Below, piece by piece: positions 12,100 through 36,090 of a stretch of 38,196 nt of DNA. The translations under genes and the position numbers were made by a program. Positions within the stretch are counted from its first letter, which is position 1; every line of letters begins with the position of its first letter. The DNA lies in contig JAPLCW010000010.1 of assembly GCA_026392015.1 (NCBI GenBank), positions 1 through 38,196 on the forward strand. Reading direction: 5' to 3'. The DNA is from Candidatus Auribacterota bacterium (GTDB lineage Bacteria > Auribacterota > Tritonobacteria > UBA1439). The notes beneath the pieces were generated by a model. It was not told the origin of the DNA. It saw only the letters and a program-made list of their open reading frames with translations, and did no database searches.

Positions 12100-12869
12100 A
12101 GCGACCTCCTTTCCGCAGTACCGCACACCTTGCGTTGTCTATCTCACGAGACGGGATCTCACAGGGACAACCCGCACAATAGCGGGTTCATTCCTTCCAC
12201 ACACACTATCTCACCAAATAGGCCGGTATTTCAATTGGCACCTTCCCCTTTGAATTGACTTTGTTCCACTCCGGGAATTAGGGATACATATTCTTATATT
12301 TGGCTCATGACGGATTATTGTGAAAGAAACGTACGAAAATATACTGCATAACATCTGCCAATCACGCTGCATCTTGTTGGCTGGCTTGAGGATGAGCCTT
12401 TACGAGCCCCTCTCACACCGGTCAAAATAGATGTGAGTCATGAGTACTGATACATGGAGACAAGAAAGGGGTCATCTTTTGTAGGGGTTCGATGAACCTG
12501 TCCTGAGCGAAGCCGAAGGGTCGAACCCGCTGCATACCAATGCATTCGATGAGGGCCCCGATATTTATCGGAGCCCCTACAGATTCTGTTTTGTCGATCA
12601 CAAAATTCCGTCATGAGCCTTATACACACAAAATCGGATTCGTGATCCTTCGGCAAGCTCAGGACAAGTTTTATCACGCCCTTGTTCGATCCTTAGGCTT
12701 CCATCGAACCCCTGCAAATCAATGCTCCCCAAATTGACCTGCTACCCGATTATGCGCATTATTGCCAAAGTCAAAAAATTATCGGCAAAGAGAGATTAAC
12801 TTAACCATGGAATATGTATATAATAACTAAGGAAGTTGATCTGTCCCTGTTCAACCTATGTGGAGAATC
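12100..12869. other. Gene-poor divergent region with nested repeats
   Basis: This separates the PfpI gene (minus) from the epimerase (plus) and must contain both promoters. An AT-rich stretch at about 12800-12830 (GGAATATGTATATAATAACTA) contains TATAAT and is the best promoter candidate for the epimerase. The middle is occupied by repeat material (12464-12747). No protein is supported. Confidence 0.5.
12464..12747. repeat. Nested palindromic element, copy E, with two inner palindromes
   Basis: The right end CCCCAAATTGACCTGCTACC is a clear match to the shared outer terminus; the left end (AAAGGGGTCATCTTTT) is weak. Inside are a GTAGGGG..CCCCTAC palindrome at 12481-12580 and a second hairpin segment at about 12640-12685. 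That second segment is essentially the reverse complement of the inner part of copy C (28990-29035), sharing the 'cttcggcaagctcaggacaa' word. Confidence 0.5.
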
Positions 12870-13568
12870 ATGAACTCAACTGATAAGAAACAAAGCGAGC
12901 GGATCGTGATCGTTCCCTCTCTCCTTTCCGCCGATTTCGCATACCTGGAACGCGATATAAAGAAGGTCGAAGAGGCCGGCTGCCGCGACCTCCACCTCGA
13001 TGTGATGGACGGGCATTTCGTGCCCAATATCACCATCGGGCCTGTAGTGGCGAAGGCAATCCGGCGTGTCAGCCGATCGTTTCTTACCGCCCATCTCATG
13101 ATCGAAGATCCGGAGCGATACATCGGGGCGTTCAAAGAGAGCGGCATGGACCAGATCATCATCCATCAGGAGATCGAGGCCGATTTCGTTGAAGTGCTCG
13201 CTGCGATAAAGAAGGCGGGCATGGCAGCAGGGGTATCCATCCGGCCCCAAACCCCCGTAAAGACCATTGTGCCCGGCGTTGAGCTGTTGGATTCCATCCT
13301 GATCATGAGCGTCGAGCCTGGGTTCGGGGGGCAGGAATACATCCCCGGCAGCGAGGCGAAGGTGGCGGACGCTCGACAGCTACTGGAACGGCACGGGCGC
13401 GTGATTCCCATCGGCGTCGACGGCGGGATCAATATCAAAACAGCGCCCATCGTGGCCAGGGCGGGAGCAACCCGCCTCATCGCCGGAAGCGCCGTGTTCA
13501 AAGGAGACGTCCCCCGGAATATTGCCTCTCTCCGCGAAAGCGCGCTGCACGCCGTGAGTGGGCGGTGA
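12870..13568 (+). CDS. rpe: Ribulose-phosphate 3-epimerase
   Basis: Interconverts ribulose-5-phosphate and xylulose-5-phosphate in the pentose phosphate pathway. It is a 232-residue single-domain TIM barrel of normal length. From the chosen ATG (12870, with GGAG just upstream), visible motifs are PSLLSADF (16-23), the metal-binding HLDVMDGHF (H42, D44), H75 in AHLM, MSVEPGFGG (146-154) and VDGG with D184. All metal and catalytic positions of the family are present. An in-frame ATG at 12858 is an alternative start with a poorer site. It lies alone on the plus strand, but supplies the missing step between gnd and phosphoketolase encoded on the opposite strand. Confidence 0.95.
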   Translation: MNSTDKKQSERIVIVPSLLSADFAYLERDIKKVEEAGCRDLHLDVMDGHFVPNITIGPVVAKAIRRVSRSFLTAHLMIEDPERYIGAFKESGMDQIIIHQEIEADFVEVLAAIKKAGMAAGVSIRPQTPVKTIVPGVELLDSILIMSVEPGFGGQEYIPGSEAKVADARQLLERHGRVIPIGVDGGINIKTAPIVARAGATRLIAGSAVFKGDVPRNIASLRESALHAVSGR

Positions 13569-13948
13569 GGTAATTGATGTGCGGCATCCTGCCGCGATGA
13601 TCGGGGCGAGATGGTCGCGGCAAAATCCCAAATCCCAAACTCCAAATCCCAAACATTTATGACGATCGGGTCAGGATAGCTATGGAGCCTCAGTCAGGGG
13701 GAATTATCATACCCCCCACCCTGCCCTCCCCCTCAAGGGGGGAGGGGATATTAAATCTATGCCCACAACAATGAATCTCCTGGGTGAGAGCAGCATCCCG
13801 CTGCGATGATCGGGCCAGGAGGGCCCCCCCAATCAGCAGATTAGGATAGGTGGAATAAGGTCAGAAAATAGTGGAATCAGCCACTGTACATATTCTCTCA
13901 AGATAATATGATTTGTGCATAAACTTCTCTCAAAAAGGAGGTGCGGAT
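13569..13948. other. Intergenic repeats between rpe and cysteine-rich mini-gene
   Basis: A perfect 6-bp stem hairpin GCGGCATCCTGCCGC (13583-13597) lies just after rpe. It is followed by repeat words ATCGGGGCGAG also found near 4270 and 13800. A second GC-rich hairpin CCCTCCCCCTCAAGGGGGGAGG occurs at about 13724-13747. The AT-rich stretch TACATATTCTCTCAAGATAATATG (about 13886-13912) could be the promoter of the mini-gene. Confidence 0.45.
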
Positions 13949-14059
13949 ATGTGTCAGTCATGCGGATGCTCCCCGTGCAGTAAGTGCGGAAAGCCGATTG
14001 AAAACGGCGTATGCAGCGGCTGCAATAAAAAAGCCGAGGCGTGCACCTGTAAGAAGTAG
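13949..14059 (+). CDS. Cysteine-rich 36-residue mini-protein, metallothionein-like
   Basis: The frame starts at the ATG at 13949 and ends with TAG at 14057-14059. AAAAAGGAGGTG stands just upstream, one of the best ribosome sites in the window. The peptide has nine Cys in 36 residues (positions 2, 5, 7, 10, 13, 22, 25, 32, 34), arranged as CxxCxCxxCxxC, CxxC and CxC, with several Lys and no aromatic residue. This spacing suggests binding of Zn or another soft metal, as in metallothioneins or paired zinc knuckles. A redox or metal-chaperone role is equally possible. It resembles small 'MCxxCGC' proteins I believe occur in anaerobes, but I cannot name a family. It is a single gene in a repeat-rich area. 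Confidence 0.75.
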   Translation: MCQSCGCSPCSKCGKPIENGVCSGCNKKAEACTCKK

Positions 14060-14279
14060 CTCTGGCCCGATCGGCTGGCGCAATAGTATTCACAATCCGG
14101 TTCTGGACAATCCAGCATAATGAACTTGATTAGGTAAGGGCTATTTTTGTCTCTGGATAAGTCTGTTCTTTCAGCATTGCCTTTTTAGGGGGAAAAAGAG
14201 GATTCTTAAGTGCTCTGGGCCACAAATTCGGTGACGTATTCTTTACTTTGCAGCAGCGCTTGCTGCCTACTATTCCATG

Positions 14280-14379
14280 TCATTGCGAGCCCCGCGGAGG
14301 GGGGCGTGGCAATCTCAAATTCACAAGCCCTTATAGTAGAATTGCTTCGTCTCCCGCTACGGGGGACTCCTCGCAATGA
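14280..14379. repeat. Palindromic CATTGCGAG element, copy 2
   Basis: It begins TCATTGCGAGCCCCGCGGAG and ends CTCCTCGCAATGA, with inner GGCAATCT and AATTGCTTCG arms. Same family as 357-434 and 14490-14580. Confidence 0.7.
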
Positions 14380-14489
14380 CAAGGTGCAATGTTCTCCTCG
14401 CGGCGATAGACAACGCAACCGTCGTTATAACATTGTACTACTACACTGTTAAATTAGTTTTTACTGATATAAATGCCGTAAGCATTATG

Positions 14490-14580
14490 TCATTGTGAGG
14501 ATCCCGCCGAGGAGGGAGACGAAGCAATCTGTTTTTATCTTTTAACAACGAGATTGCCGCGCCCTTTGGGCTCGCAATGA
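14490..14580. repeat. Palindromic CATTGCGAG element, copy 3
   Basis: It begins TCATTGTGAGGATCCCGCCG and ends GGGCTCGCAATGA. Inner arms GAAGCAATCT and AGATTGCCGC pair imperfectly. It is separated from copy 2 by about 110 bases. Confidence 0.7.
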
Positions 14581-14857
14581 CAGGTTACCTCGTAAGAATT
14601 AACTTAACAGTGTACTCCTAACGTCAAAATGCTAGTTTTCTTGGCAAAGATCTCTACATCTAAGTACGTAACACATTGTTTCGCAGTGTAGTGCTTTATC
14701 TGTGTTCATCCGCGGTTATCTGTGTGAATCTGTGGTACTCTTTAAAGCTTCAACGTGCATCACTGATAAACACAGATAGATTTGGTTACCGCCAATGGCC
14801 GCGCCATGTAGTAATGCGGATAATATCCGGGTAGGCGAACCGGAATAGGCTGGAACA

Positions 14858-15616
14858 ATGACATCGAAAAGTCTGGCAGGGAAAACAGCTCTAGTTACCG
14901 GCGCGCCCAGGAGAATCGGCAAGGCGATATCGCTCGCCCTTGCCGCGGAAGGGGTGAACATTGCTCTCCATCATAACGACCCCGAGGCGGACGTGGAGAG
15001 ACTTGCCACCGAGCTGGCAGATTATAAAGTCCGCTCCTGGGCCATAAAAGCGGATTTCTCGAATCCGCATGAATATGAAACTTTGGTGGAGAGGGCACGG
15101 GATATCGCGGGAAGTCTGGATATCCTGGTCAATAACGCCTCCATTTTTTCCGCTGCGACGCTCGATACCATTGACTTTAAAAGCCTGACGCAGCACATAC
15201 AGATCAACGCATGGGCACCGTTCGTGCTCAGCCGCGATTTCGCCCGTCTGTCCGGAAGCGGTCAGATCATCAATATCCTCGATTCGAAAATCAAGGGGTA
15301 CGACTGGGCCCATGCGCCGTACATCCTGAGCAAACACATGCTCGCCGTGCTGACAAAAATGTGCGCGCTCAGTTTCGCTCCCCATATCACGGTGAACGCC
15401 ATAGCGCCCGGATTGATACTCCCTCCCGCAGGCAAGGACGAGAGTTATCTCGACCGGCTCGCGGATACCGTCCCGCTGAAGCGACATGGCGGGCCCGATG
15501 ATATTGCGGGCGCGGTACTGTATCTCCTCAAGAACGATTTTCTCACCGGACAGGTTATCTACGTCGACGGAGGCCGGCATCTCGCGGAATACGGAAATGG
15601 ACCATATCCTCATTAG
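14858..15616 (+). CDS. Short-chain dehydrogenase, pteridine reductase/FolM-like
   Basis: A 252-residue NADPH-dependent SDR. It has TGAPRRIG (14-21), the form of the dinucleotide loop found in pteridine reductases and FolM with Arg for NADPH. It also has NNAS (92-95), D142, Y155 and K159. The Asp-Tyr-Lys set, with Asp where most SDRs have Ser, is the PTR1-type active site. It should reduce dihydropterins or dihydrofolate to the tetrahydro form. It is first in an operon with folB, folK and folE (20-base overlap with folB). This supports a pterin substrate rather than a lipid or sugar. Whether it replaces a DHFR or makes tetrahydromonapterin cannot be decided here. Confidence 0.85.
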   Translation: MTSKSLAGKTALVTGAPRRIGKAISLALAAEGVNIALHHNDPEADVERLATELADYKVRSWAIKADFSNPHEYETLVERARDIAGSLDILVNNASIFSAATLDTIDFKSLTQHIQINAWAPFVLSRDFARLSGSGQIINILDSKIKGYDWAHAPYILSKHMLAVLTKMCALSFAPHITVNAIAPGLILPPAGKDESYLDRLADTVPLKRHGGPDDIAGAVLYLLKNDFLTGQVIYVDGGRHLAEYGNGPYPH

Positions 15617-17273: not shown

Positions 17274-17627
17274 ATGCTCAAAATCAAAAGGGTGTAGGAA
17301 AAAGCCGAAAAGGGCGATGGCGTGAGAGTGCTCGTTGACCGCCTCTGGCCTCGGGGACTGAGCAAGGAAAAGGCGAGAATCGATATTTGGCTCAAGGAGA
17401 TAGCTCCGAGCGATCAATTGAGACGCTGGTTCTCACATGATCCTGAAAAATGGGGAGAATTCAAAAAGAGGTATTTCAAAGAGTTGGGGAGCAAACAGGA
17501 ACTGGTCTCGCAGATCGTGCAACAGGCGCGAAAAGCCGCTGTCACCCTGCTTTATGGAGCAAAGGAGGAGAGATGTAACAATGCGACAGCGCTACAGGAG
17601 TATTTGAAAACCAGAATCAAGGATTAA
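17274..17627 (+). pseudogene. DUF488 family gene with in-frame amber codon
   Basis: The family normally starts 'MIKIKRVYEPP..DGYRVLVDRLWPRG'. Here the ATG at 17274, with GAGAGGAG at ideal distance, gives MLKIKRV. TAG then replaces the expected Tyr codon at 17295-17297, and the same frame continues EKAEKGDGVRVLVDRLWPRG to the end. The rest of the domain is intact, about 110 residues. A GTG at 17322 could restart translation, but it would drop the first strand and has no good site. Either the gene is freshly inactivated by a single base change, or the amber is read through or is a sequencing error. DUF488 function is unknown. The neighbours do not hint at one. Confidence 0.8.
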
Positions 17628-19144: not shown

Positions 19145-20164
19145 TCACTCATTCCTATATTCGCTTCCCTCCCGGACCTTTCCTCGAAATACCAGGTACA
19201 TGTAGCCGTTATACACCATGATGATCGGGATGAGGGCTCCGATACCGGCGAGCATGAACTTCAGAGTTTCGGGAGATGCCGCCGCCATCTGGACGGTGAC
19301 CGCGTCAGGAACGATGGAGGGATACATACTGGCCCACAACCCCGCAAAGGTGAGCAGGAAGATGGCAATGCTTGCGAAAAACGGGATGGATTCCCGCCTC
19401 TTCGTGAGACTGAAGATAAGCAGCCAAAATATGGATGTCACCGCCAGGAAAAGCCCGATGAAGTAAAAGAGAGCGGGGGGCGTGGTCCACCGCCGGGCCA
19501 CCGGTATGTGGATGAACGACATGGCAGCGGTCGTTGCCGCCGCCACTCCCACGGCAATGAAAGCAGTGACCATAGCCCATCGGTAGTTTCGCATTTGGAT
19601 GGGACCTTCCGTTTTCATAACAAGGTAGGTCGCCCCCAACATGGCATAGCCGCTGACAACGCCGATCACCATTAACACCGTGAAAGAGTTCACCCAATCG
19701 AACATGCCCCCCGTGAAATTGCCCGCTCCGTCGGTGCGGATCCCACCCAGGGCGCCACCGAGGATGAAACCTTGGGAAACCGCAGCCAGGAGACTCCCCA
19801 TCCCGAATGACCAATCCCAGAGACGCTTGCGCACGGCGAGATTGTGAAACTCGAAGGCCACACCTCGAAATATCAGACCGACCGCCATCAGAAATACGGG
19901 AATATAGAGGGCGTTTAAGAGCAGGCTGTAACAGAGAGGAAATGCACCGAAGAGCGCGCCGCCGAAAATGACCAGCCAGGTTTCATTGGCGTCCCATATC
20001 GTGCCGAGGCTGCCCATCATGATCCTCCGCCGATTTTCATCGTTCGAAAAAAGGGAGAGAATCCCGATGCCGAGATCGAAACCATCGAGAACGATATAAA
20101 GGGCAAGAATCAGCCCGAGAAGATAAAACCATACCGTTGCGAGAATATTCACGCTCTGTTCCAC
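19145..20164 (-). CDS. cydB: Cytochrome bd-type quinol oxidase subunit II
   Basis: A 339-residue membrane protein with about eight to nine hydrophobic segments. The N-terminal ALYIVLDGFDLGIGIL is the CydB signature. W57-D58 and the GSLGTIWDANETWLV segment are typical. Partner of CydA in the bd/CIO oxidase that reduces O2 with quinol. It starts with GTG at 20164, with GAGGGAG upstream. It lies 253 bases after cydA, a gap that contains a repeat hairpin and is wide for an obligate pair. No cydX-like small frame was recognised. Confidence 0.93.
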   Translation of the reverse strand: MEQSVNILATVWFYLLGLILALYIVLDGFDLGIGILSLFSNDENRRRIMMGSLGTIWDANETWLVIFGGALFGAFPLCYSLLLNALYIPVFLMAVGLIFRGVAFEFHNLAVRKRLWDWSFGMGSLLAAVSQGFILGGALGGIRTDGAGNFTGGMFDWVNSFTVLMVIGVVSGYAMLGATYLVMKTEGPIQMRNYRWAMVTAFIAVGVAAATTAAMSFIHIPVARRWTTPPALFYFIGLFLAVTSIFWLLIFSLTKRRESIPFFASIAIFLLTFAGLWASMYPSIVPDAVTVQMAAASPETLKFMLAGIGALIPIIMVYNGYMYLVFRGKVREGSEYRNE

Positions 20165-20417
20165 AGGCTCTGCTCCCTCACGTCTTTCATCTCCTGCCGG
20201 ATAATCCGAACCGGAGATTTCTGATTACTACACCCCCACCGTCGCCCTCCCCCTTCACAGGGGGAGATAAAGGAATTACACCATTGTTTTTCATTTTTTT
20301 CGCAAGGCCCCAGTCTTATGGGGAGAATTTTAGAACCTGATCACGAATTACACGAATTAAATGAATATATTTTGCCTGCTGTTTATTTCAGCATTATACA
20401 ATTTCCCTAACTACTAA
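20165..20417. other. cydA-cydB spacer with GC-rich hairpin
   Basis: The hairpin CTCCCCCTTCACAGGGGGAG (20246-20265) is the same family as at 1018 and 13724. Short 'ACGAATTACACGAATTAAATG' words follow at about 20343-20363. No gene is seen. Confidence 0.5.
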
Positions 20418-21776
20418 CTACTGTTTTGTTACAGCTGTCGTATCAGGGCCTTTCTGGATAATTCTTCTCGCAAATATGAAGAAGAGGACGAACAATAGTG
20501 TATAGATAATCACATATGCCGCGAGCGACGCCTGTACCGGCCTCGCGCTCAATCGCGAAACAGTACTCTCTGTGCGGAGAATGCCGTACACCACCCAGGG
20601 CTGACGGCCCACCTCGCGCACAATCCATCCCATCTCCAAGGCGATATAAGGTGCCGGAATACCGAAAAGCCAGCAACGGAGAAGCCACTTCCGGGTTGCC
20701 GCCCTCTCCGGCGAAAGGAGTCCCCTGAGCCAGTCCCAGACGGTCCACAGCATGAGAAAGAAAATGCCGATCCCCAAGACCGCCATGATGCGAAAGGCGT
20801 AGAAGGGCAGCACGATCGGTGGCCTGTCTTCCCGCGGAAATTCTTTGAGACCCTTTACCTGGCCGGTCAGCGAGTGTGTGGTGAGAAGACTCATCAGGTA
20901 CGGAATCTCTATCGCCCATCGGTTTTCCTGCCTCTCCGGATCCGGCCAGGCGACGACCGCCAGGGGGGCTCCGATGCCGGGGGGATTGGTATCCCAGTGA
21001 CTCTCCATGGCGGCCACCTTCGCCGGCTGGTATCGCGCGATCAACCGGCCGCTCGCATCCCCCAGGTATATCTGGAGAGGGGCCGCCACGATTGCGGCGA
21101 CGACCGCCATCTTGAACGAGAGAAGAAAAAATTCGGTATCCCTCTTCTTCAAAATATACCCCGCGCTCAACCCCGCCACGACGAAAAGCCCGACGATGAG
21201 ACACGCGAACCACATGTGCGAGAATGACAAGAATATATCCGCGTTAAAGATCGCCTCTCTGTAACTCACGGGAACCAGATGCCCTGCGCGCATGGTCACG
21301 CCGGCCGGCACCTGCATCCAGGCATTGCCGTCCATGATCCAGAATGCGGAGAGCGATGCCCCCAGGGTAACAAGAACGGTGGAGAGCATATGGACAGCCC
21401 GTGACACACGGTTCCACCCGAACATCATGATCGCCAGGAACGCCGCCTCCATGGCAAACGCCATCGCGGCCTCGAAGCCGAGGATATTACCGAAGAAATC
21501 TCCCGTGACCGCTGAAAATCCCGCCCAGTTTGTCCCAAACTGAAATTCCATCACCACGCCGGTGACCACGCCGATGGCGAAGTTCAGCAGGAAGAGCGAG
21601 CCCCAGAAGCGGCAGTGACGGTAGTACCTTGAATCAGCGGTCTTCAGCCAGATCGCTTCCATCACCACGAGGAACACGCTCATGCCGATGGTCAGAGCCG
21701 GCCATAGGATATGGAACATTATCGTGAAGGAAAACTGGAGGCGGGAGAGAAAAACGGGATCACTCAGCCATTCCAT
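20418..21776 (-). CDS. cydA: Cytochrome bd-type quinol oxidase subunit I
   Basis: A 452-residue heme-bearing subunit of the O2-reducing quinol oxidase. Expected ligands are present: H22 for heme b595; E102 and E110 in GFEAAMAFAMEAAF; H187 and M331 (FRIM) for heme b558; and the quinol-loop K253 and E258 in AKVAAMESHW. GRQPW stands at 390-394. The Q-loop is short, as in the CIO/short-loop bd group rather than E. coli bd-I. The start ATG has GAGGAG upstream. It lies 217 bases downstream of the cytochrome b-c fusion gene. Short-loop bd oxidases are often high-affinity and resistant to NO or cyanide. That would suit the nearby NO reductase but is inference. Confidence 0.94.
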   Translation of the reverse strand: MEWLSDPVFLSRLQFSFTIMFHILWPALTIGMSVFLVVMEAIWLKTADSRYYRHCRFWGSLFLLNFAIGVVTGVVMEFQFGTNWAGFSAVTGDFFGNILGFEAAMAFAMEAAFLAIMMFGWNRVSRAVHMLSTVLVTLGASLSAFWIMDGNAWMQVPAGVTMRAGHLVPVSYREAIFNADIFLSFSHMWFACLIVGLFVVAGLSAGYILKKRDTEFFLLSFKMAVVAAIVAAPLQIYLGDASGRLIARYQPAKVAAMESHWDTNPPGIGAPLAVVAWPDPERQENRWAIEIPYLMSLLTTHSLTGQVKGLKEFPREDRPPIVLPFYAFRIMAVLGIGIFFLMLWTVWDWLRGLLSPERAATRKWLLRCWLFGIPAPYIALEMGWIVREVGRQPWVVYGILRTESTVSRLSARPVQASLAAYVIIYTLLFVLFFIFARRIIQKGPDTTAVTKQ

Positions 21777-21993: not shown

Positions 21994-24360
21994 TCATTTC
22001 CCGCGCCACCCAATCCAATAGAAACCGATGACCGTCCACAACAGGCCGAGCACGACGGCGGTCAGGATGAAGAATTTACGCGGCTGCATGCCGGGCACGC
22101 GAATGGCCGAGCGGTCCACTCCGTTGAGCGATAGAATATACGCCTCGATCTGGGAAATCATCTCCTGGGTGAGGATAAGGTTATCCCCGAACGCCGGCAT
22201 GACCTTCTCCGGATGTTTTCCCGGAGGAACCGATCCGTGCTGGATGAAACGATCTATAGTACGCGCGAAGGTGAGAGGGTCCTTGCTGTATAGCTCCGGG
22301 TCGATCGGGTTTAACGCGGGAACCTTGCCGTCATCCGAGCCGGAGTTGGGCACATTATCCTTTCCCTCCGGCCCGTGGCAGGATATACAATTTTTTTCAT
22401 ACAAAAGCCCGCCGTGAGACGGATTGCCTACCCGCAGCGCCGCCGGGCCTGGAAGCTCATGCGTGCCGCTTTCAGGCGAATTAGAGGATGAAATCGGCGG
22501 AGCGGAAGTCGGTGAGAGAGGAGCCTCACCCTTATCAGAAGACGAGTCCGGTGGATCGGAAGACGTTGCAGGGGGATCGGCACTCCCCGGAGAGTCTTTC
22601 CCGGGACCGGAGTTGAGGCTCTCGAGATATTTAGCCAGATCGTTCACCTGCTCTTCGCTCAACGACTTAAACCCCGGCATGATCGTGTTGGGGTTGTGCG
22701 CTTGCGGATCGCGGATCTGTGCGGTGATCCAGGAGATCGGGTGCCCCTTGCTTCCCTCGCCTGAGAGGTCGGGGCCCATGATGCCGCCCTTTCCGCCTAT
22801 TGCGTGGCACCCAATGCACGGGAGCGTCGGAAAGAGATTTTTGCCCCTCTCAACTCCGGTCGAAGCGATTGCCTCGCCTTTTTCCACCTCTGTTTTTTCA
22901 GATGCCGCAGTCGGCAGGGCAATTGCATAAGACGGAGATGGGCGCGGCTCTGCGGCACCCGCGGGGGGGGTCTCCATCAGGGTTGTGGGCGCGGGCGGCG
23001 ACACGGCGCCGCCTTTCCCGAGCGTTGCCAGGAATTCCACCATATTGTTCACCTCGGAGCCGCTCAATGATGTAGAGGGCGGCATGACTGTCGACGCATT
23101 ATGCGACTTCGGATCTCGAATCTGCTGGGTGAGCCATTGCCTCGATCGCCCGCGGGTTCCTTCCTTCGAGAGGTCCGGCCCTATGCTGCCTCCATGGCCG
23201 TTCACCGTGTGACATACCCTACAACCCTGTTTCTGAAAGAGATCCGCCCCTTTTTGGGCTCCGGGAGGGAGTGGAGCGGCCAGCAAAAGCGGCGCGCCGG
23301 AGACCGGAGGGGTAGCGTTGCTCAGATATCCAAGAATAGTGTAGGTGATGAGCCACGCCACAAAGGCGGCGCCTCCTGCCATCACCGCCGGACGCTTGAG
23401 CGGATTGCGCTCCATGCTTCGGTCGTAGAACGGCAGCAGAATCAGTATGAGGAACAGCAACAGCGGAACACCCACTGTCCCCACAGATTCCCACGGCCCC
23501 TTGAACAGCTTGATGAACTGATAGAGAAAAAGAAACTGCCACTCCGGCTTCGGGACGTAGGTAGTGTCAACCTCGTCTGCAGGCCCGGTGACGGGCGCGG
23601 GCCAGAATGCGCTCAAGCCCACCAGGATCAGGAAGATGACGGAAACAGCTATCAGGTCCTTCAGCACCTGATTCGGCCAGAACAGGCCCATCTTCTTGCG
23701 GCGTTCCTGATCCCATGGACCAACACTGCCAAACTGCCTGAACGCCACCAAATGAAGTATAATGAGGATGCCCAACAGTCCGGGGAGAACGAACACGTGC
23801 AGAACAAAGAAGCGGGAAAGAGTCATCTGGCTCATCGCAGCGCCGCCGCGCAAAAAGATCTTTAAAAACGAGCCGATGAGGGGGGTAGTGCCGGCGATGC
23901 TGGTGCCCACCTCAGCCGCCCAATACCCGAGTTCATCCCATGCCAGCAAGGCGCCGACGAAAGAGAGAGCGAGAACGGTCAGTACCAGGCATGGCCCGAT
24001 CATCCAGGTCAGTTGGCGGGGTTTCTTATACGCTCCCCAGATGAATACGCGGGCTATATGAAGTCCCACCAGGACGACAAACGCATTGCTGCCCCAGTAG
24101 TGAAGGCCGTGAATGAGCCAGCCGAACGGCACCTCCTGCCGCAGATAGATGACGCTCTGATAAGCGTAATCGCGCGCCGGCACGTAGTAGAACAGCTGCC
24201 ATATCCCGGTCACCGCCTGAATCACGAAGGCGAAGAGGCACGCGGAGCCGAAACAGTACCAGAAGCTGTCCCCGCCGACTATCTCCTCCTCAAGGCTCCA
24301 CCGCAGCGCAGCCCTGACCGGCAAACGATCGGAGAACCATCGTCCTATTCTTGAACTCAT
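21994..24360 (-). CDS. Cytochrome b6/subunit IV fused to three c-type heme domains
   Basis: A 788-residue core of a quinol-cytochrome c reductase. Residues 1-350 form a complete b-type part. Histidine pairs H87/H101 and H188/H203 show 13- and 14-residue gaps, the latter diagnostic of b6 rather than mitochondrial-type b. A subunit IV part follows with PEWQF (272-276, the PEWY quinol site variant). After a TM segment come three heme c motifs, CRVCH (380-384), CIGCH (515-519) and CISCH (658-662), each with a likely Met ligand (M426, M561, M721). The first two domains are similar to each other. Pro/Ser/Asp-rich linkers separate them, and a last TM helix (about 762-782) anchors the C-terminus. The Rieske gene lies just upstream. 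The ATG follows GAGGTTCAT. All subunits needed for the complex appear to be these two proteins. Confidence 0.92.
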   Translation of the reverse strand: MSSRIGRWFSDRLPVRAALRWSLEEEIVGGDSFWYCFGSACLFAFVIQAVTGIWQLFYYVPARDYAYQSVIYLRQEVPFGWLIHGLHYWGSNAFVVLVGLHIARVFIWGAYKKPRQLTWMIGPCLVLTVLALSFVGALLAWDELGYWAAEVGTSIAGTTPLIGSFLKIFLRGGAAMSQMTLSRFFVLHVFVLPGLLGILIILHLVAFRQFGSVGPWDQERRKKMGLFWPNQVLKDLIAVSVIFLILVGLSAFWPAPVTGPADEVDTTYVPKPEWQFLFLYQFIKLFKGPWESVGTVGVPLLLFLILILLPFYDRSMERNPLKRPAVMAGGAAFVAWLITYTILGYLSNATPPVSGAPLLLAAPLPPGAQKGADLFQKQGCRVCHTVNGHGGSIGPDLSKEGTRGRSRQWLTQQIRDPKSHNASTVMPPSTSLSGSEVNNMVEFLATLGKGGAVSPPAPTTLMETPPAGAAEPRPSPSYAIALPTAASEKTEVEKGEAIASTGVERGKNLFPTLPCIGCHAIGGKGGIMGPDLSGEGSKGHPISWITAQIRDPQAHNPNTIMPGFKSLSEEQVNDLAKYLESLNSGPGKDSPGSADPPATSSDPPDSSSDKGEAPLSPTSAPPISSSNSPESGTHELPGPAALRVGNPSHGGLLYEKNCISCHGPEGKDNVPNSGSDDGKVPALNPIDPELYSKDPLTFARTIDRFIQHGSVPPGKHPEKVMPAFGDNLILTQEMISQIEAYILSLNGVDRSAIRVPGMQPRKFFILTAVVLGLLWTVIGFYWIGWRGK

Positions 24361-26625: not shown

Positions 26626-28914
26626 CTATCGGACGCCGCCATTGGCGGCGACGCTCCTCATGCGCAGGTATGTTATCCCTGTTGCCATAAGGAGAGGGAT
26701 TATTCCCGCGACGATGAACACGGCATCCGCAGGCAGGCGGATCCAAAAGATAAAGTTCATGAGGGAAAGATTGAGAAATTCAGGACTCCTTGCATGCCAG
26801 TATCCGTTGGCCAGGACGTCCCGCAATTGAAGCACCCCGCCGGGGAAGAGGCTCATCGCCACCATCATCGCAAGGCCGATATTGAGGCCCCAGAACGACA
26901 CGCGCACGTATCTTTCCGTCCTCTTCCATACCGCATCCGTCGACACCTGCCGCAGCGCGAACACGACAAAGGAAATCGCCAGCATCCCGAAAACGCCCAT
27001 CAGCGCCGCATGGCCGTGGTTGGGCGTTAGCATGGTTCCGGCCTCGTAGTAGCTCACAATGGGCAGGTTGATCAGGAAACCGAATATGCCCGCGCCGACG
27101 AAGTTCCAGAACCCCACCGCCATGAGGAAATAGAACGTCCAGTTATGGGGGAATGAAGATCCCTTTACCCCGCCCTCTCGGCGGGTCAGGGTGATGAAGT
27201 CCCAGGCATCGAGTGTCAGAAGGATCAACGGCACGGGCTCCATCGCTGAAAACACGGATGAGAGCGCCATCGAAATGCCCGGCTGCCCCGTCCAATACCA
27301 GTGGTGCCCGGTCCCGATTATCCCGGAGCCGAGGAAGAGGATCGCGTCGAGGTAGATGATGCGTGCAGCCGTCTGCCTGGCGACCATGCCGAGCCTGAAG
27401 AAAAGGACGGCCACCATCACCGTGGCGAACAGCTCGAAGAAACCCTCCACCCAGAGGTGGATGATCCAGAAGCGCCAGGCATCCACCACCGTATAGGAGG
27501 TGGAGCTCCCGAAGAAAAAGGCGGGAAGATAAAAGACGGGGATGGCGAACGCCGCGCCGAGAAAGAGTATCGACATCTCACGCTTCTCCGGATCTTTCCT
27601 TGCCGGCCCGACCCCCCTCATCAGGAGAATCCCCCACAATGCCATGCCGATTGCAAGAAGCACCTGCCAGAAACGTCCCAGGTCAAGATATTCCCACCCC
27701 TGAAGCCCGATCCAGTACCAGAATTTCCCGGCATGCTGAAAGACAGCGGGCCATTCGCAGAGCAGGCTCCCGGCCACCACCACTCCCAGGACGCAAAAGA
27801 GAACAGTGATCCCCATCCGTTGACCGCGCGGCTCCCGCTCCCCCAATGAGGATGCGATAATCAATCCACCGCCCATGAAGCAGGTCGCGATCCAGAAGAT
27901 GCCCATCTGAAGATGCCAGGTGCGCGTGAGGTTGCTGGGGAAAATTCCGGAGAGATCGATCCCGTAAAAACTGGCCGGGTCAACCAGGTAGTGGGCGGTC
28001 ACCGCTCCGGCGAGCGCCTGCGCCAGAAAAAGGAACATGGCGACCAGAAAGAATTTGATGCTCGCCTTCTGGCTTTCCGTCGCTCCTTCCGGAAGCAACT
28101 GGGGCCGGGATCTCGCCCCCTCCCCGCGCCAGCCGAGGTACCTGAATCTTCCAAAGGAGAAAAGCACCGCTGCGGTCCCCGCCAGGAGCGCAATCAGGCT
28201 CAATGCGCTCCACAGCACCGCCCCGGGAGTGGGGCTGTTTCCCGCCAGCGGTTCGTAAGGAAAATTATTGGTGTACGAACAGGCTTCCCCAGGGCGCCTC
28301 GCGACGCTCGCCCACGCAGCCCATGCGAAAAAAGCCGTGAGCGTCCTTATCTCTTCGGGGTCTGCAATATATGCAGCGGGAAGGCCACGGTTATTCCTCG
28401 GCTGCGAGAAGAACTCTTTCCACTTCCCTATCTGAGTGCGATACGAGCCCGCCTCCGGACCGGTGAAGGTGAGGATCTCCCTGTCCGGATCATAGCGGTT
28501 CCCCTTGAGGAGCTCCCGCGCCTGGGAGAGCACCGTGTACCGCTCGGCATCGCTTATTTGATCCGCCCCCCTGTCATAGCTCTTCCTGGAAAGCGCATCG
28601 CAGGAATCGACTGCCAGGTCGTGGAGGTACTGTGCGGCATAATCCGGCCCGAGATATCCTCCATGCCCCCATATGCTGCCATTCTCCATCAGCGCGTGTT
28701 TCAGAAATACCTGCTGGCCGGAACGGATGTCGTCGCCGGTGAACAGCGTTCCGCCCGACTCCGTGACGACCACGCGGGGAACCGGAGGAGCGGCGCGGTA
28801 GGCATTCGCGGACATATAGATGAGGACTGCAAACCCTCCCACTACCGTGATGAGAGTACCCCTCCGCCACCAGGGGGAAAGCTCGGTTGTGATAAAGGAA
28901 TCTTCCCGGCTCAT
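26626..28914 (-). CDS. norZ: Quinol-dependent nitric oxide reductase
   Basis: Reduces 2 NO to N2O in the membrane, taking electrons from quinol without cytochrome c. It has 762 residues: a TM helix (about 18-36), a periplasmic cytochrome-c-like domain lacking heme motifs (about 40-225), then about twelve TM helices. Fe_B ligands H486, H537 and H538 with E490, and the conserved E559, keep exactly the spacing known from cNOR and Geobacillus qNOR. Heme histidines H334 (TWHLQ) and H633/H635 (NHGHAALMG) are present. The quinol-site HxxxE is H308-x3-D312 with F316, a conservative change. These argue for true NO reduction rather than NO dismutation. GAGGA precedes the ATG. A palindromic element lies just upstream, replacing any obvious FNR- or NsrR-like site. 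Confidence 0.93.
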   Translation of the reverse strand: MSREDSFITTELSPWWRRGTLITVVGGFAVLIYMSANAYRAAPPVPRVVVTESGGTLFTGDDIRSGQQVFLKHALMENGSIWGHGGYLGPDYAAQYLHDLAVDSCDALSRKSYDRGADQISDAERYTVLSQARELLKGNRYDPDREILTFTGPEAGSYRTQIGKWKEFFSQPRNNRGLPAAYIADPEEIRTLTAFFAWAAWASVARRPGEACSYTNNFPYEPLAGNSPTPGAVLWSALSLIALLAGTAAVLFSFGRFRYLGWRGEGARSRPQLLPEGATESQKASIKFFLVAMFLFLAQALAGAVTAHYLVDPASFYGIDLSGIFPSNLTRTWHLQMGIFWIATCFMGGGLIIASSLGEREPRGQRMGITVLFCVLGVVVAGSLLCEWPAVFQHAGKFWYWIGLQGWEYLDLGRFWQVLLAIGMALWGILLMRGVGPARKDPEKREMSILFLGAAFAIPVFYLPAFFFGSSTSYTVVDAWRFWIIHLWVEGFFELFATVMVAVLFFRLGMVARQTAARIIYLDAILFLGSGIIGTGHHWYWTGQPGISMALSSVFSAMEPVPLILLTLDAWDFITLTRREGGVKGSSFPHNWTFYFLMAVGFWNFVGAGIFGFLINLPIVSYYEAGTMLTPNHGHAALMGVFGMLAISFVVFALRQVSTDAVWKRTERYVRVSFWGLNIGLAMMVAMSLFPGGVLQLRDVLANGYWHARSPEFLNLSLMNFIFWIRLPADAVFIVAGIIPLLMATGITYLRMRSVAANGGVR

Positions 28915-29113: not shown

Positions 29114-31510
29114 TTAAGGGGTTCCCCACCGCCAGTTCAGTACCTCCGGAAGCTCCTCGTCATGCGCACGTATATACGACTGGTGCACGGTCAATCTCTC
29201 ACTGAAGCCGTCGATGACATCCCCGGCGCGCGCCTGAAGTCTCGTGCTGCGCGTGAGGGCGGCGATGGCGAGATGAAAGCGGCTCATCTTGTTGAGCACC
29301 AGCATGTCGAACGGCGTGGTGGTGCGGCCTTCCTCGATGTAACCGTGCACATGAAACCGCTGCGGATTGGGGCGATGATGTATCAGCTCGTGAATGACTC
29401 TCGGATATCCGTGAAAGGCGAATATGACCGGCCTGTCCTCCGTGAACAGTTCCACAAAGATAGATTTATCAAGACCGTGCGGATGGTCGTCTTTCGATAT
29501 GAGGGTGAAAAGGTCCACGACGTTCACCACACGCACCCTGATCTCCGGAAGGGCGCGCCTCAGCAGCCAGGCGGCCGCAAGCGTTTCCTCCGTCGGCACA
29601 TCGCCCGCCGATGCCAGAATGACGTCGGGATCGCCTCCATCATTGCTTGCCCACTGCCACACCGATGCGCCCCGCGCGCAATGCTCCCTCGCCGCGTCCA
29701 TCGCAAGCCACAGGGGATTCATCTTCTTTGACGCAACGATCAGGTTTACGTAGTTCCGGCTCCTCAGGCAGTGATCCATAATGGAGAGGAGACAGTTCGC
29801 GTCGGGCGGAAGATAGATCCGCGCCACGGAGCTTTTCTTGTTCACGACGTTATCAATAAAGCTCGGCACCTGATGGGTGTAGCCGTTGTGATCCTGCTGC
29901 CAGACGTGAGAGGTGAGGAGGTAGTTGAGCGAGGAGAGCGGTTTTCTCCACGGCGTTTCACTCGAGACCTTGAGCCACTTGGCGTACTGGTTGAGCATCG
30001 AATCGACGATCGGAATGAAGGCCTCGTAGCACGCGAAGAGCCCATGCCGGCCGGTGAGGAGATAGCCCTCCAGCCAGCCTTCGCAGGTGTGCTCGCTCAG
30101 GATCTCCATGACCCTCCCTCCGCGCGAGAGGAATTCATCGGTCTTCACCAGGGGCCACTCGAAGGCGCGGCTGGTGGCTTCGAATATCTTCTCCATGCGA
30201 TTGGAGGTGGTCTCATCCGGGCAGAAGAATCTGAAATTCCCTGCCTCCGCATTCTCACGGAAAACATCACGCAGGAACTCGGCTACCACGCGCGTCCCCT
30301 CCGCATCCACGGCGCCGGGGGAAGGCACGTCGACCGCGTAGCCCGCAAAGTCAGGGAGACGGAGGGGGACCATCAGCGCCCCGCCGTCGGCATGGGGATT
30401 CATGCCGATTCTCCGTTCCTTACGCGGACAGACGGAGGTCACCGCGGTTGCCGGTTGCCCCTCCGCGTCGAAAAGCTCCTCGGGGCGGTAACTGCGCAGC
30501 CATGCCTCCACCGCCTTTAGGTGTGCGGGATTTGTGGCCGGATCCATGATCGGCACCTGATGGGAGTGATATGTGCCCTCGATCGGGACTCCGTCCAGAC
30601 TTTTCGGGCCGGTCCATCCTTTCGGGGTTCGAAGTATGATCATCGGCCAGGCGGGACGCGGAGGTATTTTGTCGGAGCATGCCTTTCCCCTGATGCCGCG
30701 AATCGCCCCGTATGCCCAATCCATCGCATGCCACAACCCCTTGTGCACCGGATATGGATCGTCTCCCGATACGATACGGACCATGTAGCCGTAGCCGGAA
30801 AAGAGCCGCTTGAGTTCCTCATCCGACATGCGCCCCATCAGCGCCGGGCCGGAGAGCTTGTATCCGTTCAGATGCAAAATGGGGAGGACGGCACCAGAAG
30901 TACAGGGATCGAGATATTTGCCGGAATGCCACGCCGCGGCGAGCGGTCCCGTCTCCGCTTCTCCGTCGCCTATGATACAGGCCACGATAAGATCGGGATT
31001 GTCCATCGCGGCCCCGAAGGCGTGTGACAGGCTGTAGCCGAGCTCGCCCCCCTCATGTATCATGCCCGGCGTCCCCGGGAAGAGATGGCTGGGCATTCCC
31101 CCCGGCCAGGAGAACTCGCGCTCCAGGCGCCTCAGACCGGCCAGGTCGAGCGTAAGATTGGGGTAATAGTCGGCCAACGTAGCCTCAAGATAGAGGTTCG
31201 CGAGAATGGCGGGCGCGCCATGCCCCGGCCCCACAATAAGCAGGATTGAAGCGTCCGTATCCTGTATGAGACGGTTGAGGTGGGCATAAATCAGATTAAG
31301 CCCCGGTTGTGTTCCCCAGTGCCCGAGCAGGCGCGGCTTTATATGTTCCGGCGCGAGTGGCTCCCGCAGTAGCGGATTGTCTTTCAGATAGAGCTGTGCG
31401 GCGCCGAGGAAGTTGGCGGCCCGCCAGTATGCATGGACGCGCTCCAGCCGATCCTCGGGAATTGTGCCTGCATCAACCATTTTGTCTCTCTTTTCTTCCG
31501 CCGCTTTCAT
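29114..31510 (-). CDS. xfp: Phosphoketolase (xylulose-5-P / fructose-6-P)
   Basis: Splits xylulose-5-P (and often fructose-6-P) with phosphate into acetyl-phosphate plus glyceraldehyde-3-P (or erythrose-4-P), using thiamine diphosphate. It has 798 residues, full length. Visible features are H64 in GHWGT, GPGHGAP (94-100), the TPP/Mg motif GDGEAETGP (181-189) with N215 and the C-terminal transketolase-like half. The protein is colinear with known XFP. The ATG follows GGAAGGAG. It lies 46 bases downstream of glycogen phosphorylase, which implies co-transcription. Acetyl-phosphate could feed acetate kinase or phosphotransacetylase, not seen in this window. Confidence 0.96.
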   Translation of the reverse strand: MKAAEEKRDKMVDAGTIPEDRLERVHAYWRAANFLGAAQLYLKDNPLLREPLAPEHIKPRLLGHWGTQPGLNLIYAHLNRLIQDTDASILLIVGPGHGAPAILANLYLEATLADYYPNLTLDLAGLRRLEREFSWPGGMPSHLFPGTPGMIHEGGELGYSLSHAFGAAMDNPDLIVACIIGDGEAETGPLAAAWHSGKYLDPCTSGAVLPILHLNGYKLSGPALMGRMSDEELKRLFSGYGYMVRIVSGDDPYPVHKGLWHAMDWAYGAIRGIRGKACSDKIPPRPAWPMIILRTPKGWTGPKSLDGVPIEGTYHSHQVPIMDPATNPAHLKAVEAWLRSYRPEELFDAEGQPATAVTSVCPRKERRIGMNPHADGGALMVPLRLPDFAGYAVDVPSPGAVDAEGTRVVAEFLRDVFRENAEAGNFRFFCPDETTSNRMEKIFEATSRAFEWPLVKTDEFLSRGGRVMEILSEHTCEGWLEGYLLTGRHGLFACYEAFIPIVDSMLNQYAKWLKVSSETPWRKPLSSLNYLLTSHVWQQDHNGYTHQVPSFIDNVVNKKSSVARIYLPPDANCLLSIMDHCLRSRNYVNLIVASKKMNPLWLAMDAAREHCARGASVWQWASNDGGDPDVILASAGDVPTEETLAAAWLLRRALPEIRVRVVNVVDLFTLISKDDHPHGLDKSIFVELFTEDRPVIFAFHGYPRVIHELIHHRPNPQRFHVHGYIEEGRTTTPFDMLVLNKMSRFHLAIAALTRSTRLQARAGDVIDGFSERLTVHQSYIRAHDEELPEVLNWRWGTP

Positions 31511-31556
31511 TTCCTGCTCCTTCCACCGGGGGACAGATCGCCGTTGTGCGCACCGC

Positions 31557-33299
31557 CTAATCCAGGTATGCTTTCAGAACATATTGCAGAACCATGCGGT
31601 TCGTGTTAAAGAAAGAGCCGTTGATAGCGATCGTGTGCCGCATCACGGTAGTCCAGCTCTGACAATCATGGTAAAACATCGGAAGTATCGTTTTCTCCAG
31701 CTTCTCGTAGAGAGAATCTGCGTTTCTTTCGTCGATGCCCTTTTCTTCATGAGCCGCACCGATCGACCATCCCGTCAGTCCCTCGATGCATCCCTCGATC
31801 CACCAGCCGTCCAGGATGCTGAGGCTCGGAATGCCGTTATGCGCTGCTTTCATACCGGACGTACCCGAGGCCTCTTTCGGTTTTTGAGGAGTATTGAGCC
31901 ACAGATCAACCCCGGAAATAAGCATCTTGGCCAACTCCATGTCGTAATTCTGCAGATAGACTATCTTGATCCGGTCCTTCAGCCGATGGGAGACGGAAAC
32001 TATTTTCTTGATAATCTCTTTTCCCGGCCAATCTTGCGGATGGGCCTTCCCGGCAAATACGAACTGAATCTTTCCCACATCCTTATGAATGGAGAGTAAT
32101 CTGTCGACATTTAAAAATATTAAATCCGCGCGCTTGTAGGCGGTGGCCCGCCGCGCAAACCCGATGGTAAGGGTTTTGTAGTCCATGCCGGCGCCGGTCT
32201 CAGCGTTCACACAATCGACCAGCTTATTCTTTGCCTCCTGGTGCGCGCTCCAGATCTCCTCTCCGGGGATGCTGAGGGCGTTGCGCAAACTGAACGGATC
32301 GCTCTTCCATCCGACCATGTACTTGTCATAGAGCTTCTTAAAGCTATCGCAAACCCAGGTGGCCGAGTGAACCCCATTGGTGATGGAGTCGATGTGGTAC
32401 CCGGGAAACATCTCGCGGGATATGATGCCGTGCTCTTTAGCGACGCCGTTCTCATAATGACTGACGTTGAGACCGAGACGCGTCATGTTGAGACGGTCCT
32501 CGCCCCCCAACTTTTCGAGCAGGGAGAAATCGATAAAATCCCCCAGGACGCGTCCCACCAGGTCGTACGAGAACTGATCCTGTCCGGCGGGGACCGGGGT
32601 GTGTGTGGTGAAGACACACATCCTCCTCACCCCATCGATATCCCACCCGGGCCCCCCCTCCGCCTTCCTTTCGTTCAAGAGCTCGAGCGCAAGCAGACTC
32701 GAATGCCCTTCGTTCATGTGATAGCGGATGAGGCTTCGATATCCTAACTGTTTCAGCATTCGCACGCCACCGATCCCAAGAATTATTTCCTGCGCGAGCC
32801 GATACCGTTCGTCACCGCCGTAGAGATAATACGTAAGGCTGCGGTCATAGTCGTTGTTCCCTTCGATATCGGCATCCAGGAACAGAATCGGAATCTTATA
32901 CCCGCTGACGCCTTTGGCCCGGTATTCCCATGATTGAATCACCACGTTCCTATTTTCTATTGTGACACTCACCTTTTGAGGCAATAGCCGTAAATAATCC
33001 GCCGGGTCCCACGGGCATGCGAGTTCGGACTGATTCCCGTTCGCGTCGAGTTTCTGACAGAAATATCCTTTCTTATACAGCAGGCTGACCGCCACGAGGG
33101 GCACCTTCAGATCTGCGCAGGACCGTATCATATCGGCTGCCAGGACCCCCAGGCCGCCGCTATAGGTTGGCATTTTGGGCTCGATACCTATTTCCATGGA
33201 AAAATAGGCTATTTCCCTCTCGGGCTCTCTCGATCGGGTCTTGGTTGAACTCATTGATTGCGAACGGGTAACCAATTTGGCCTTCATTGACAGACTCAC
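31557..33299 (-). CDS. glgP: Alpha-glucan (glycogen) phosphorylase, short form
   Basis: Releases glucose-1-phosphate from glycogen or maltodextrin. It has 580 residues, the short GT35 type lacking much of the regulatory N-terminus of classical 800-residue enzymes. Near the start EIAYFSMEIGIEP and PTYSGGLGVLAAD are typical. The pyridoxal-phosphate lysine is K484 in EASGTSGMKAAHNG. GWWIEG follows at about 498-503. It begins with GTG at 33299, with AAGGGA upstream at slightly long spacing; the first ~25 residues are Ser/Lys/Arg-rich and poorly conserved, so a start a few codons later is possible. It is followed closely by phosphoketolase and preceded by the oxidative pentose phosphate genes, linking storage glucan to that pathway. 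Confidence 0.93.
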   Translation of the reverse strand: MSLSMKAKLVTRSQSMSSTKTRSREPEREIAYFSMEIGIEPKMPTYSGGLGVLAADMIRSCADLKVPLVAVSLLYKKGYFCQKLDANGNQSELACPWDPADYLRLLPQKVSVTIENRNVVIQSWEYRAKGVSGYKIPILFLDADIEGNNDYDRSLTYYLYGGDERYRLAQEIILGIGGVRMLKQLGYRSLIRYHMNEGHSSLLALELLNERKAEGGPGWDIDGVRRMCVFTTHTPVPAGQDQFSYDLVGRVLGDFIDFSLLEKLGGEDRLNMTRLGLNVSHYENGVAKEHGIISREMFPGYHIDSITNGVHSATWVCDSFKKLYDKYMVGWKSDPFSLRNALSIPGEEIWSAHQEAKNKLVDCVNAETGAGMDYKTLTIGFARRATAYKRADLIFLNVDRLLSIHKDVGKIQFVFAGKAHPQDWPGKEIIKKIVSVSHRLKDRIKIVYLQNYDMELAKMLISGVDLWLNTPQKPKEASGTSGMKAAHNGIPSLSILDGWWIEGCIEGLTGWSIGAAHEEKGIDERNADSLYEKLEKTILPMFYHDCQSWTTVMRHTIAINGSFFNTNRMVLQYVLKAYLD

Positions 33300-33326
33300 T
33301 TTCGGGTTCCCTTCACCTTCGTGTGT

Positions 33327-33391
33327 GTAACCGTAGTTATGCCCTCTCCCCTTTGAAGAGGGGAGGGCGGGAGGGGAATAACTACGGTTAC
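33327..33391. repeat. Nested palindrome: GTAACCGTAGTTAT arms around a GC-rich hairpin
   Basis: The arms 33327-33340 and 33378-33391 are perfect 14-base reverse complements. Between them sits CCCTCTCCCCTTTGAAGAGG followed by GGAGGG, another hairpin. This lies in the pgl-glgP spacer. Further on, 33393-33445 has 'AAGTTTAAGGTGTAAG' and 'TTTAAACTTTACACTT' arms, and 33464-33500 another GC-rich hairpin. No gene occurs in 33300-33712. Confidence 0.7.
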
Positions 33392-33512
33392 AAGTTTAAG
33401 GTGTAAGGTTAAAAATTCAATATATTAAACTTTAAACTTTACACTTTTGGCTGTAGTTAACACCCCCACCCTCGCCCTCCCCCCTTCACAGGGGAAGGGG
33501 ATGGAGAAATTA

Positions 33513-33648
33513 GGTAATGGGTCAGTCTTGGGGGGTATCCCTTTCACTTGTCATCCCCGCGAAAGCGGGGATCCACTATGAAACCTGGATTCCTGCTTTC
33601 GCAGGAATGACATATTAAGCAATGTACCCCCCATAAGTGACCCCTTAC
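33513..33648. repeat. Nested palindromic element, copy D
   Basis: The left end GGTAATGGGTCAGTCTTGGG and right end CCATAAGTGACCCCTTAC are imperfect reverse complements, each next to a six-G or six-C run. The interior has GTCATCCCCGCGAAAGCGGG with a second arm TTCCTGCTTTCGCAGGAATG. The inner palindrome therefore matches that in copy B, while the outer ends match copies A-C. From about 33662 the sequence changes to 'TTGCTTACGGCTTACAACTT' words that run up to the pgl stop codon. Confidence 0.8.
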
Positions 33649-33712
33649 GAAATTAGACTATTTTTTCTTGCTTACGGCTTACAACTTACTGCTTATAGCT
33701 TACTGCTTATCG

Positions 33713-36000: not shown

Positions 36001-36028
36001 GGCAACCTCCTTATCAGCAGTAAGCGGT

Positions 36029-36090
36029 AAGCAATAAGCTGTAAGCTATAAGAAGCTGCATTCTTGCTTACGGCTTACAGCTTATTGCTT
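36029..36090. repeat. TAAGC-word inverted repeat between gnd and zwf
   Basis: An 18-base perfect inverted repeat (36029-36046 and 36073-36090, AAGCAATAAGCTGTAAGC) extends imperfectly to a GCAG/CTGC pair on the outside. The last codons and TAA stop of gnd fall inside the right arm. The pgl 3' end is flanked by the same kind of words (about 33662-33712). Confidence 0.85.

Follow-up and report, generated by a model that had tools for sequence, protein, structure and literature searches.

The stretch of DNA analysed here, called the window in the following, comprises 38,196 nucleotides (positions 1 to 38,196 of contig JAPLCW010000010.1, assembly GCA_026392015.1, Candidatus Auribacterota bacterium). 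A gap of 1.3 kb between the genes for a ribulose-phosphate 3-epimerase (12858-13568) and a short-chain dehydrogenase (14858-15616) contains the gene of a small cysteine-rich protein. The features referred to below are the following:

13885-13912, plus strand: weak sigma-70-like promoter candidate, TGTACA-16-TATGAT, matching the consensus at 9 of 12 positions
13935-13943, plus strand: Shine-Dalgarno sequence AAGGAGGTG, a 9-base match, 5 nt ahead of the ATG
13949-14059, stop included, plus strand: gene of a 36-residue microprotein with 9 cysteines, from translation, 32 compared members and pN/pS
17322-17627, plus strand: DUF488 gene, a recurrent neighbour only, with relatives near the peptide at the loci L017, L020 and L072

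The reading frame begins with ATG at 13949 and ends with TAG, the last base being 14059; its translation product (P0001) is MCQSCGCSPCSKCGKPIENGVCSGCNKKAEACTCKK, with the cysteine spacing C-x2-C-x-C-x2-C-x2-C-x8-C-x2-C-x6-C-x-C. The initial annotation had proposed an overlooked gene with a near-perfect ribosome site and nine cysteines in 36 residues in the pattern CxxCxCxxCxxC..CxxC..CxC, and both descriptions were accurate. A Shine-Dalgarno match of at least 7 nt within 20 nt upstream was present for 0.54% of 13,575 ATGs in control stretches. Among the 177 ATG-started open reading frames of 25-60 amino acids in the window, P0001 alone contained at least 20% cysteine; in the control stretches this applied to 2 of 1,594 such frames, with 5 and 7 cysteines. 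The promoter candidate is not significant, since two such sites occur in the stretch and 1.1 would be expected by chance. No terminator candidate was detected on the plus strand 3' of the gene, and no Rfam family reached gathering scores across the window.

The 6 kb upstream of the window copy encode a hybrid sensor kinase rich in PAS domains, a response regulator and a DJ-1/PfpI protein and then, in the gene rpe, the epimerase; downstream come the genes for the short-chain dehydrogenase, GTP cyclohydrolase I and the DUF488 protein and, farther away, those for a cytochrome b that has cytochrome c domains and for a nitric oxide reductase of the NorB type. A Pfam scan of nine genes near the window copy yielded neither a ferritin nor a metal transporter.

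The genome itself (G000) contains a second copy: the window copy is located on contig C43 and a paralogue with 67% identity on contig C53. The comparison set consisted of 32 members from 31 genomes, all different. A scan of genome contigs gave ten loci, nine of which were members; the tenth (L022, archaeal) was rejected, because its match is located at the end of an open frame of 334 residues, by eye an NcsA-like enzyme. The nine titled members were assigned to Omnitrophota/Omnitrophica (3), Planctomycetota/Planctomycetes (2), Oligoflexia, Deltaproteobacteria, Paceibacterota and "bacterium" (1 each), a spread over phyla which could be inflated by misassigned contigs, because all nine are metagenome-assembled genomes (MAGs). 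Profile searches of sampled genomes (cut-off E 1e-5, seeds included in the counts) found members in 12 of 334 genomes of the phylum of G060 (an Omnitrophota MAG), 7 of 345 for that of G066, 7 of 294 for that of G065 (a Planctomycetes MAG) and 5 of 247 for that of G063, four of these last rows duplicating another phylum search. For the phyla of G067 (a Paceibacterota MAG; 1 of 239) and G059 (an Oligoflexia MAG; 1 of 144) the seed was the only one. The family is patchy: counting the seeds, members occur in 0.4-3.6% of the genomes sampled from each phylum. In the phylum to which the window belongs, members at E 1e-3 or better came from 1 genome of 44, the window's own; matches in G017 and G008 of that phylum (E 0.05-0.09) were too weak and were not counted. 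Plasmids and phages gave no tblastn match at E up to 1, a second member, searched against plasmids only, gave none either, and two scans of viral contigs showed no relative; a phage or plasmid carrier is therefore not supported in these collections.

Two further loci in Planctomycete genomes (L032 and L033, in G064 and G065) contain, from position 1480 on the plus strand, a different and longer cysteine-rich microprotein, and were left out of the member counts. The protein from L033 has 47 residues, MCADSALCDCGRELEQGLCSGCKKPVDTCVCEEVCPGCGQPVDECTC, and contains a CxxC-x6-CxC module twice. A further search of 246 genomes for this type gave one weak and unconvincing match beyond the seed.

Missing conservation of the cysteines in relatives had been named in the initial annotation as evidence against a gene; what was found is that every one of the nine cysteine columns is intact in at least 31 of the 32 members. 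C2, C5, C10 and C13 are present in all, and C7, C22, C25, C32 and C34 in 31. The only loss of C7 is in the own-genome paralogue. C22 and C25 are gone, together with two glycines, in L074, which is a decayed copy, and C32 and C34 in L019, where the C-terminus is disrupted. Other residues are similarly constant: M1 and G24 in 32 of 32, likewise position 17 as I or V, G6 and G14 in 31, P9, K12, G20 and K27 in 30; positions 3, 4, 11, 18 and 28-31 are variable, and in six members no residue separates C10 from K12.

Between the window copy and L013, pS was 1.04 and pN 0.08. The pN/pS ratios against the window copy ranged from 0.08 to 0.48 (30 comparisons), with a median of 0.23 across all 465 pairs of 31 members, and both TGT and TGC occur at every cysteine column. 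The combination of low protein change with synonymous change near saturation is purifying selection. Within 20 nt of the start, 29 of 31 members had a Shine-Dalgarno match 5 nt or longer, compared with 8.4% of control ATGs; such a match was missing in L021 and L075, and the match of the paralogue was weak (5 nt, 14 nt away). The paralogue, the conserved cysteines in 32 members, purifying selection and the Shine-Dalgarno matches of the members together settle the status of 13949-14059, which encodes a real gene, kept by selection, and not a chance reading frame.

No significant relative of P0001 was found in Pfam, NCBIfam or PDB. The Pfam comparison extended to E 10 for P0001 and to E 1 for 25 members, HMMER filters dropping most matches above about 0.1. 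The matches of the 25 members were all below the cut-off: zf_C2H2_13 in ten (best E 0.057), Metallothio_Euk in three (best E 0.016), and Zn_ribbon_Nudix, Zn_Ribbon_1 and Zn_ribbon_3 in single members (E 0.025-0.04). Neither the bacterial metallothionein model PF02069 nor the rubredoxin and desulforedoxin models matched P0001 or any of these members. NCBIfam gave one irrelevant weak match (E 0.65), and the nearest solved chains by sequence were the ends of Fpg-type glycosylases (E 0.65, not significant). An AlphaFold2 model from nine sequences had short strands, a mean pLDDT of 81 and a pTM of 0.46; the pLDDT of the five models ranged from 55 to 81, two staying below 60. The best PDB match in Foldseek had an E value of 2.9, and of 15 realigned chains none reached Z 2, so that membership among the zinc ribbons is supported neither by a Pfam match above cut-off nor by a fold match. 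In 31 members, residues 1 to 36 include no histidine. Searches of open-licence PMC papers brought up no description of this family and no paper with the letters MCQTCGC. This is a conserved family from several bacterial phyla, liable to be hidden by length cut-offs, for which Pfam and NCBIfam have no model.

For an analysis of neighbouring genes, stretches of up to 7 kb per side were taken for 31 members (363 kb; eight loci measured less than 9 kb in all). From the same genomes 40 control stretches were taken, five of which were wholly masked, leaving 35 usable ones (430 kb); these are not strictly random, many lying at contig starts and some being short. The best 45 strict blast clusters were examined, those of sigma factor, ArsR, AraC, WrbA and hemerythrin being named by eye. 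Receiver-domain proteins were the commonest neighbour under strict clustering (6 of 31 loci, 1 of 35 controls). A superoxide reductase cluster and a sigma factor cluster were each present at 5 of 31 loci, phosphoribosyltransferase and DUF488 clusters each at 4, and clusters of an AraC-type response regulator, a WrbA-like, an ArsR-like and a hemerythrin protein each at 3, all of them with 0 of 35 controls. Two families were commoner in the controls (3 controls each versus 1 and 0 member loci). Because of shared flanks (L060/L061, L062-L064, L065/L070, L066/L068, L018/L019, L072/L073) the loci are not all independent, and several of the three-locus clusters consist of the trio L062-L064 alone.

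In ten neighbours scanned, Pfam confirmed Desulfoferrodox, Ferritin, Response_reg, ArsP_1, Pribosyltran, FMN_red, VIT1 and DUF488, as well as Rubrerythrin together with Metallophos, and the ODP domain, which belongs to proteins of the flavodiiron type. A metallophosphatase-rubrerythrin fusion is encoded 49 nt upstream of the peptide at L014, and a homologue is located upstream at L058. At L014 the superoxide reductase gene adjoins that of a phosphoribosyltransferase; at L060 and L061, genes for an ArsP_1 permease, a superoxide reductase and a phosphoribosyltransferase are arranged in series upstream of the peptide. At least one query protein of oxygen defence or iron handling was within reach at 13 of 31 loci and at 1 of 35 usable controls, a difference biased upward because the query set was drawn from member loci. 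None of this set was present at 18 of the 31 loci (eight loci being shorter than 9 kb), nor within 7 kb of the window copy. Upstream of the members no convincing operator of a metal regulator was detected: sites of the Fur, Zur, CsoR and FNR type were at about the level of shuffled sequences, and a PerR-like site occurred in 4 of 31 members versus 2.3% of shuffles.

The superoxide reductase family (PF01880) was represented by 24 genes in 22 of the 31 member genomes. A gene of this family was located within 4 kb of the peptide and on the same strand in 5 of 31 genomes (G000 on contig C53, G060, G228, G136 and G211), where 0.098 would be expected on either strand; in G202 and G754 the distances were 7 kb and 26 kb. 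Since G136 and G211 have flanking genes in common and appear closely related, four cases can be regarded as independent, with P 3.5e-6, uncorrected for the choice of the family after the clusters had been seen; if about two thousand gene families are allowed for, an assumed figure, P is about 0.007. The five nearby enzymes are of the one-iron type, because they do not have the N-terminal CX2CX15CC centre. The association of the microprotein genes with one-iron superoxide reductases is new.

The locus of the own-genome paralogue and that of G228, from the Omnitrophota phylum, have a gene set in common: an AraC-type response regulator (62% identity), the peptide, a CheY-like protein (42%), the superoxide reductase (68%) and a ferritin-like protein (70%). 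The order of the last two is swapped between the loci, and G228 has two more genes, for a kinase and another receiver protein, between those of the AraC-type regulator and the peptide. Behind both sets comes a gene for a ferredoxin-like protein (59%, by eye), at a greater distance in the genome of the window. The AraC-type regulator recurs in G202 (52%), here after the peptide. The common gene set and the patchy distribution suggest that the microprotein gene set was passed between phyla.

P0001 is most likely a stand-alone metal-thiolate microprotein with two predicted four-cysteine metal sites, for which eight cysteines would suit a tetrahedral arrangement, and metal binding, taken by itself, appears highly probable. 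The metal would probably be Zn(II) or Fe(II), round which the 36 residues could fold at two sites. The ligands would be C2, C5, C10, C13, C22, C25, C32 and C34, which are kept except in the two visibly damaged members; C7, which the own-genome paralogue does not have, would be an extra cysteine. Two pairings may be considered: a zinc ribbon (C10, C13, C22, C25) with a closing site (C2, C5, C32, C34), or successive modules (C2, C5, C10, C13 and C22, C25, C32, C34). The longer Planctomycete protein, which has CxxC-x6-CxC twice, would rather point to the modular pairing.

The combined reading, a metal-thiolate protein with a role in oxygen or iron stress, is preferred tentatively, its probability coming close to even without reaching it. 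In anaerobes exposed to oxygen, a small and cheap buffer of thiols and metal might take up metal from damaged sites, or release metal once oxidation reaches its thiolates; it would act alongside superoxide reductase, ferritin or rubrerythrin, hemerythrin and proteins of the flavodiiron type. This buffer mechanism in particular, which is suggested because of the oxygen- and iron-stress neighbours at member loci, is possible, if on the unlikely side. The initial annotation had reasoned from a heme- and iron-rich genome towards metal storage or delivery; that reason is replaced here by the recurrent genes for superoxide, oxygen and iron handling near other members, which are better though likewise indirect evidence. 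Storage or delivery would be a reasonable function for nine cysteines in 36 residues, but no model, of metallothioneins or of anything else, was matched significantly.

Several known systems can be compared. The C(P)XCG zinc-finger micro-proteins of haloarchaea (HVO_2753, HVO_0758; PMC11241148) are likewise stand-alone, shorter than 70 residues and equipped with CxxCG knuckles; by the class definition given there, P0001 has two such motifs, CQSCG at residues 2-6 and CSKCG at 10-14. HVO_2753 has four CxxCG-type motifs, hence two predicted sites, and zinc was bound by 9 of 14 measured proteins of the class, so not by all of them (PMC11241148). The likeness is one of description, and no sequence relation is claimed: those proteins are archaeal, and the excerpted text of PMC11241148 mentions neither a CxxCGC...CxC pattern nor an association with superoxide reductase. 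Since prediction programs are reported to have given HVO_2753 a metal site in error (PMC11241148), the cysteine geometry in the AlphaFold models is no proof of metal. SmtA and the Pseudomonas metallothionein (PMC7387436) are also small, cysteine-rich metal-thiolate proteins, the Pseudomonas cluster also having nine cysteines; it is Zn3Cys9His, whereas the 31 microprotein members compared have no histidine up to residue 36, and PF02069 is not matched. MtrI of the archaeon Methanosarcina mazei has 68 residues, with four helices and a 15-residue zinc ribbon, and binds its enzyme, the Mtr complex, in an oxygen-dependent manner (PMC12774963); it resembles our microprotein in being small and overlooked, and it combines a zinc ribbon with an oxygen link in an anaerobe. 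FA519 was considered as a known case and set aside, being a protein of 225 residues (PMC8579941).

A rather unlikely alternative is a zinc-ribbon adaptor or regulator, in which the metal would hold the fold and the surface (lysines and the GKPIENGV loop) would bind a protein or nucleic-acid partner under oxygen stress and alter its activity. The segment C10-x2-C13-G-x7-C22-x2-C25 resembles a short zinc ribbon, in line with the sub-cut-off zinc-ribbon matches in Pfam, and the near-fixation (30-32 of 32) of G6, P9, K12, G14, I/V17, G20, G24 and K27 goes beyond the needs of a pure metal sponge. Response regulators are found near the peptide at several loci, and precedents exist among archaeal small proteins in MtrI and in Brz, a small zinc-finger regulator (PMC2253796). 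Against an adaptor, no partner gene is constant, the 6 of 31 loci of the receiver proteins being the maximum under strict clustering; loose clustering, with kinases and receivers lumped together, reaches 12 of 31. Moreover, 36 residues with nine cysteines would leave little surface.

A more far-reaching version of the metal-thiolate reading appears doubtful: a horizontally spread, previously undescribed family of anaerobes whose 36 residues hold two independent Cys4 modules. Its genes would belong to a mobile set for oxygen stress, together with those for the AraC-type response regulator, CheY, the one-iron superoxide reductase and the ferritin-like protein; the peptide would serve superoxide reductase and ferritin specifically, as their metal or redox partner, and would have escaped notice through its short length. 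Were the microprotein a true partner of either, it would be a missing component of the oxygen survival of anaerobes.

Improbable is a metallothionein-like peptide for storage or detoxification of heavy metals (Zn, Cd, Cu), an idea close to that of the initial annotation. The protein is small, lysine-rich and 25% cysteine, and the sub-threshold matches to Metallothio_Euk (3 of 25 members, best E 0.016) point in this direction. So do, by eye, P-type ATPases of a metal-transporting type (L013, L021 and L061) and ArsR-like genes (L013, L066 and L068), and in addition the ArsP-type permease at L060 and L061. However, PF02069 is not matched, P-type ATPases occur at 3 of 31 loci and also in 2 of 35 usable controls, and the nine window genes scanned by Pfam include no ArsR/SmtB-type regulator. 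The nearly fixed glycines, proline and spacing would also set the family apart from loose metal sponges.

Desulforedoxin has about 36 residues, rubredoxin has CxxCG knuckles, and both have only four cysteines per site. With these proteins P0001 has the CxxC knuckles and a connection to superoxide reductase in common, and it differs in its cysteine pattern and in matching no Pfam model. A miniature Fe(Cys)4 redox protein of this kind, donating electrons to the adjoining one-iron superoxide reductase, could be imagined from the size, from the knuckles and from the five nearby enzymes, all without a CX2CX15CC centre; it is very improbable, since there are nine cysteines and not four, PF01880 was not found in 9 of the 31 member genomes (completeness not given) nor on the contig of the window copy (C43), and the ferredoxin-like gene near both common gene sets would be the more usual donor. 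A chance reading frame or non-functional remnant, to which the sparse distribution, the cysteine losses in L074 and the disrupted L019 might point, is refuted by conservation, pN/pS, Shine-Dalgarno sequences and paralogue, barring an artefact common to 32 records, and retains a negligible probability.

Some further observations concern the window. A GC-rich repeat of the type ccctgccctccccctcaagggggga at 13706-13773 takes 33 of the 40 other own-genome matches of a query covering 13700-14300. Downstream of the microprotein gene, the intergenic region 14270-14600 contains, by eye, two repeats of the type cattgcgag...caatctc, the part of which inside the query is covered by 3 of the 40 matches. 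On the minus strand, 21994-24360 encodes a single protein of 788 residues, in which Pfam finds the N- and C-terminal domains of cytochrome b and three cytochrome c stretches, and 26626-28914 the NorB-type nitric oxide reductase, to which a cytochrome c-like domain is fused; genes resembling cytochrome bd (19145-21776, by eye) are located near the latter. A row of minus-strand reading frames at 29114-37510 would, by eye, encode phosphoketolase-like, glucan phosphorylase-like, 6-phosphogluconolactonase-like, glucose-6-phosphate dehydrogenase-like and 6-phosphogluconate dehydrogenase-like proteins.
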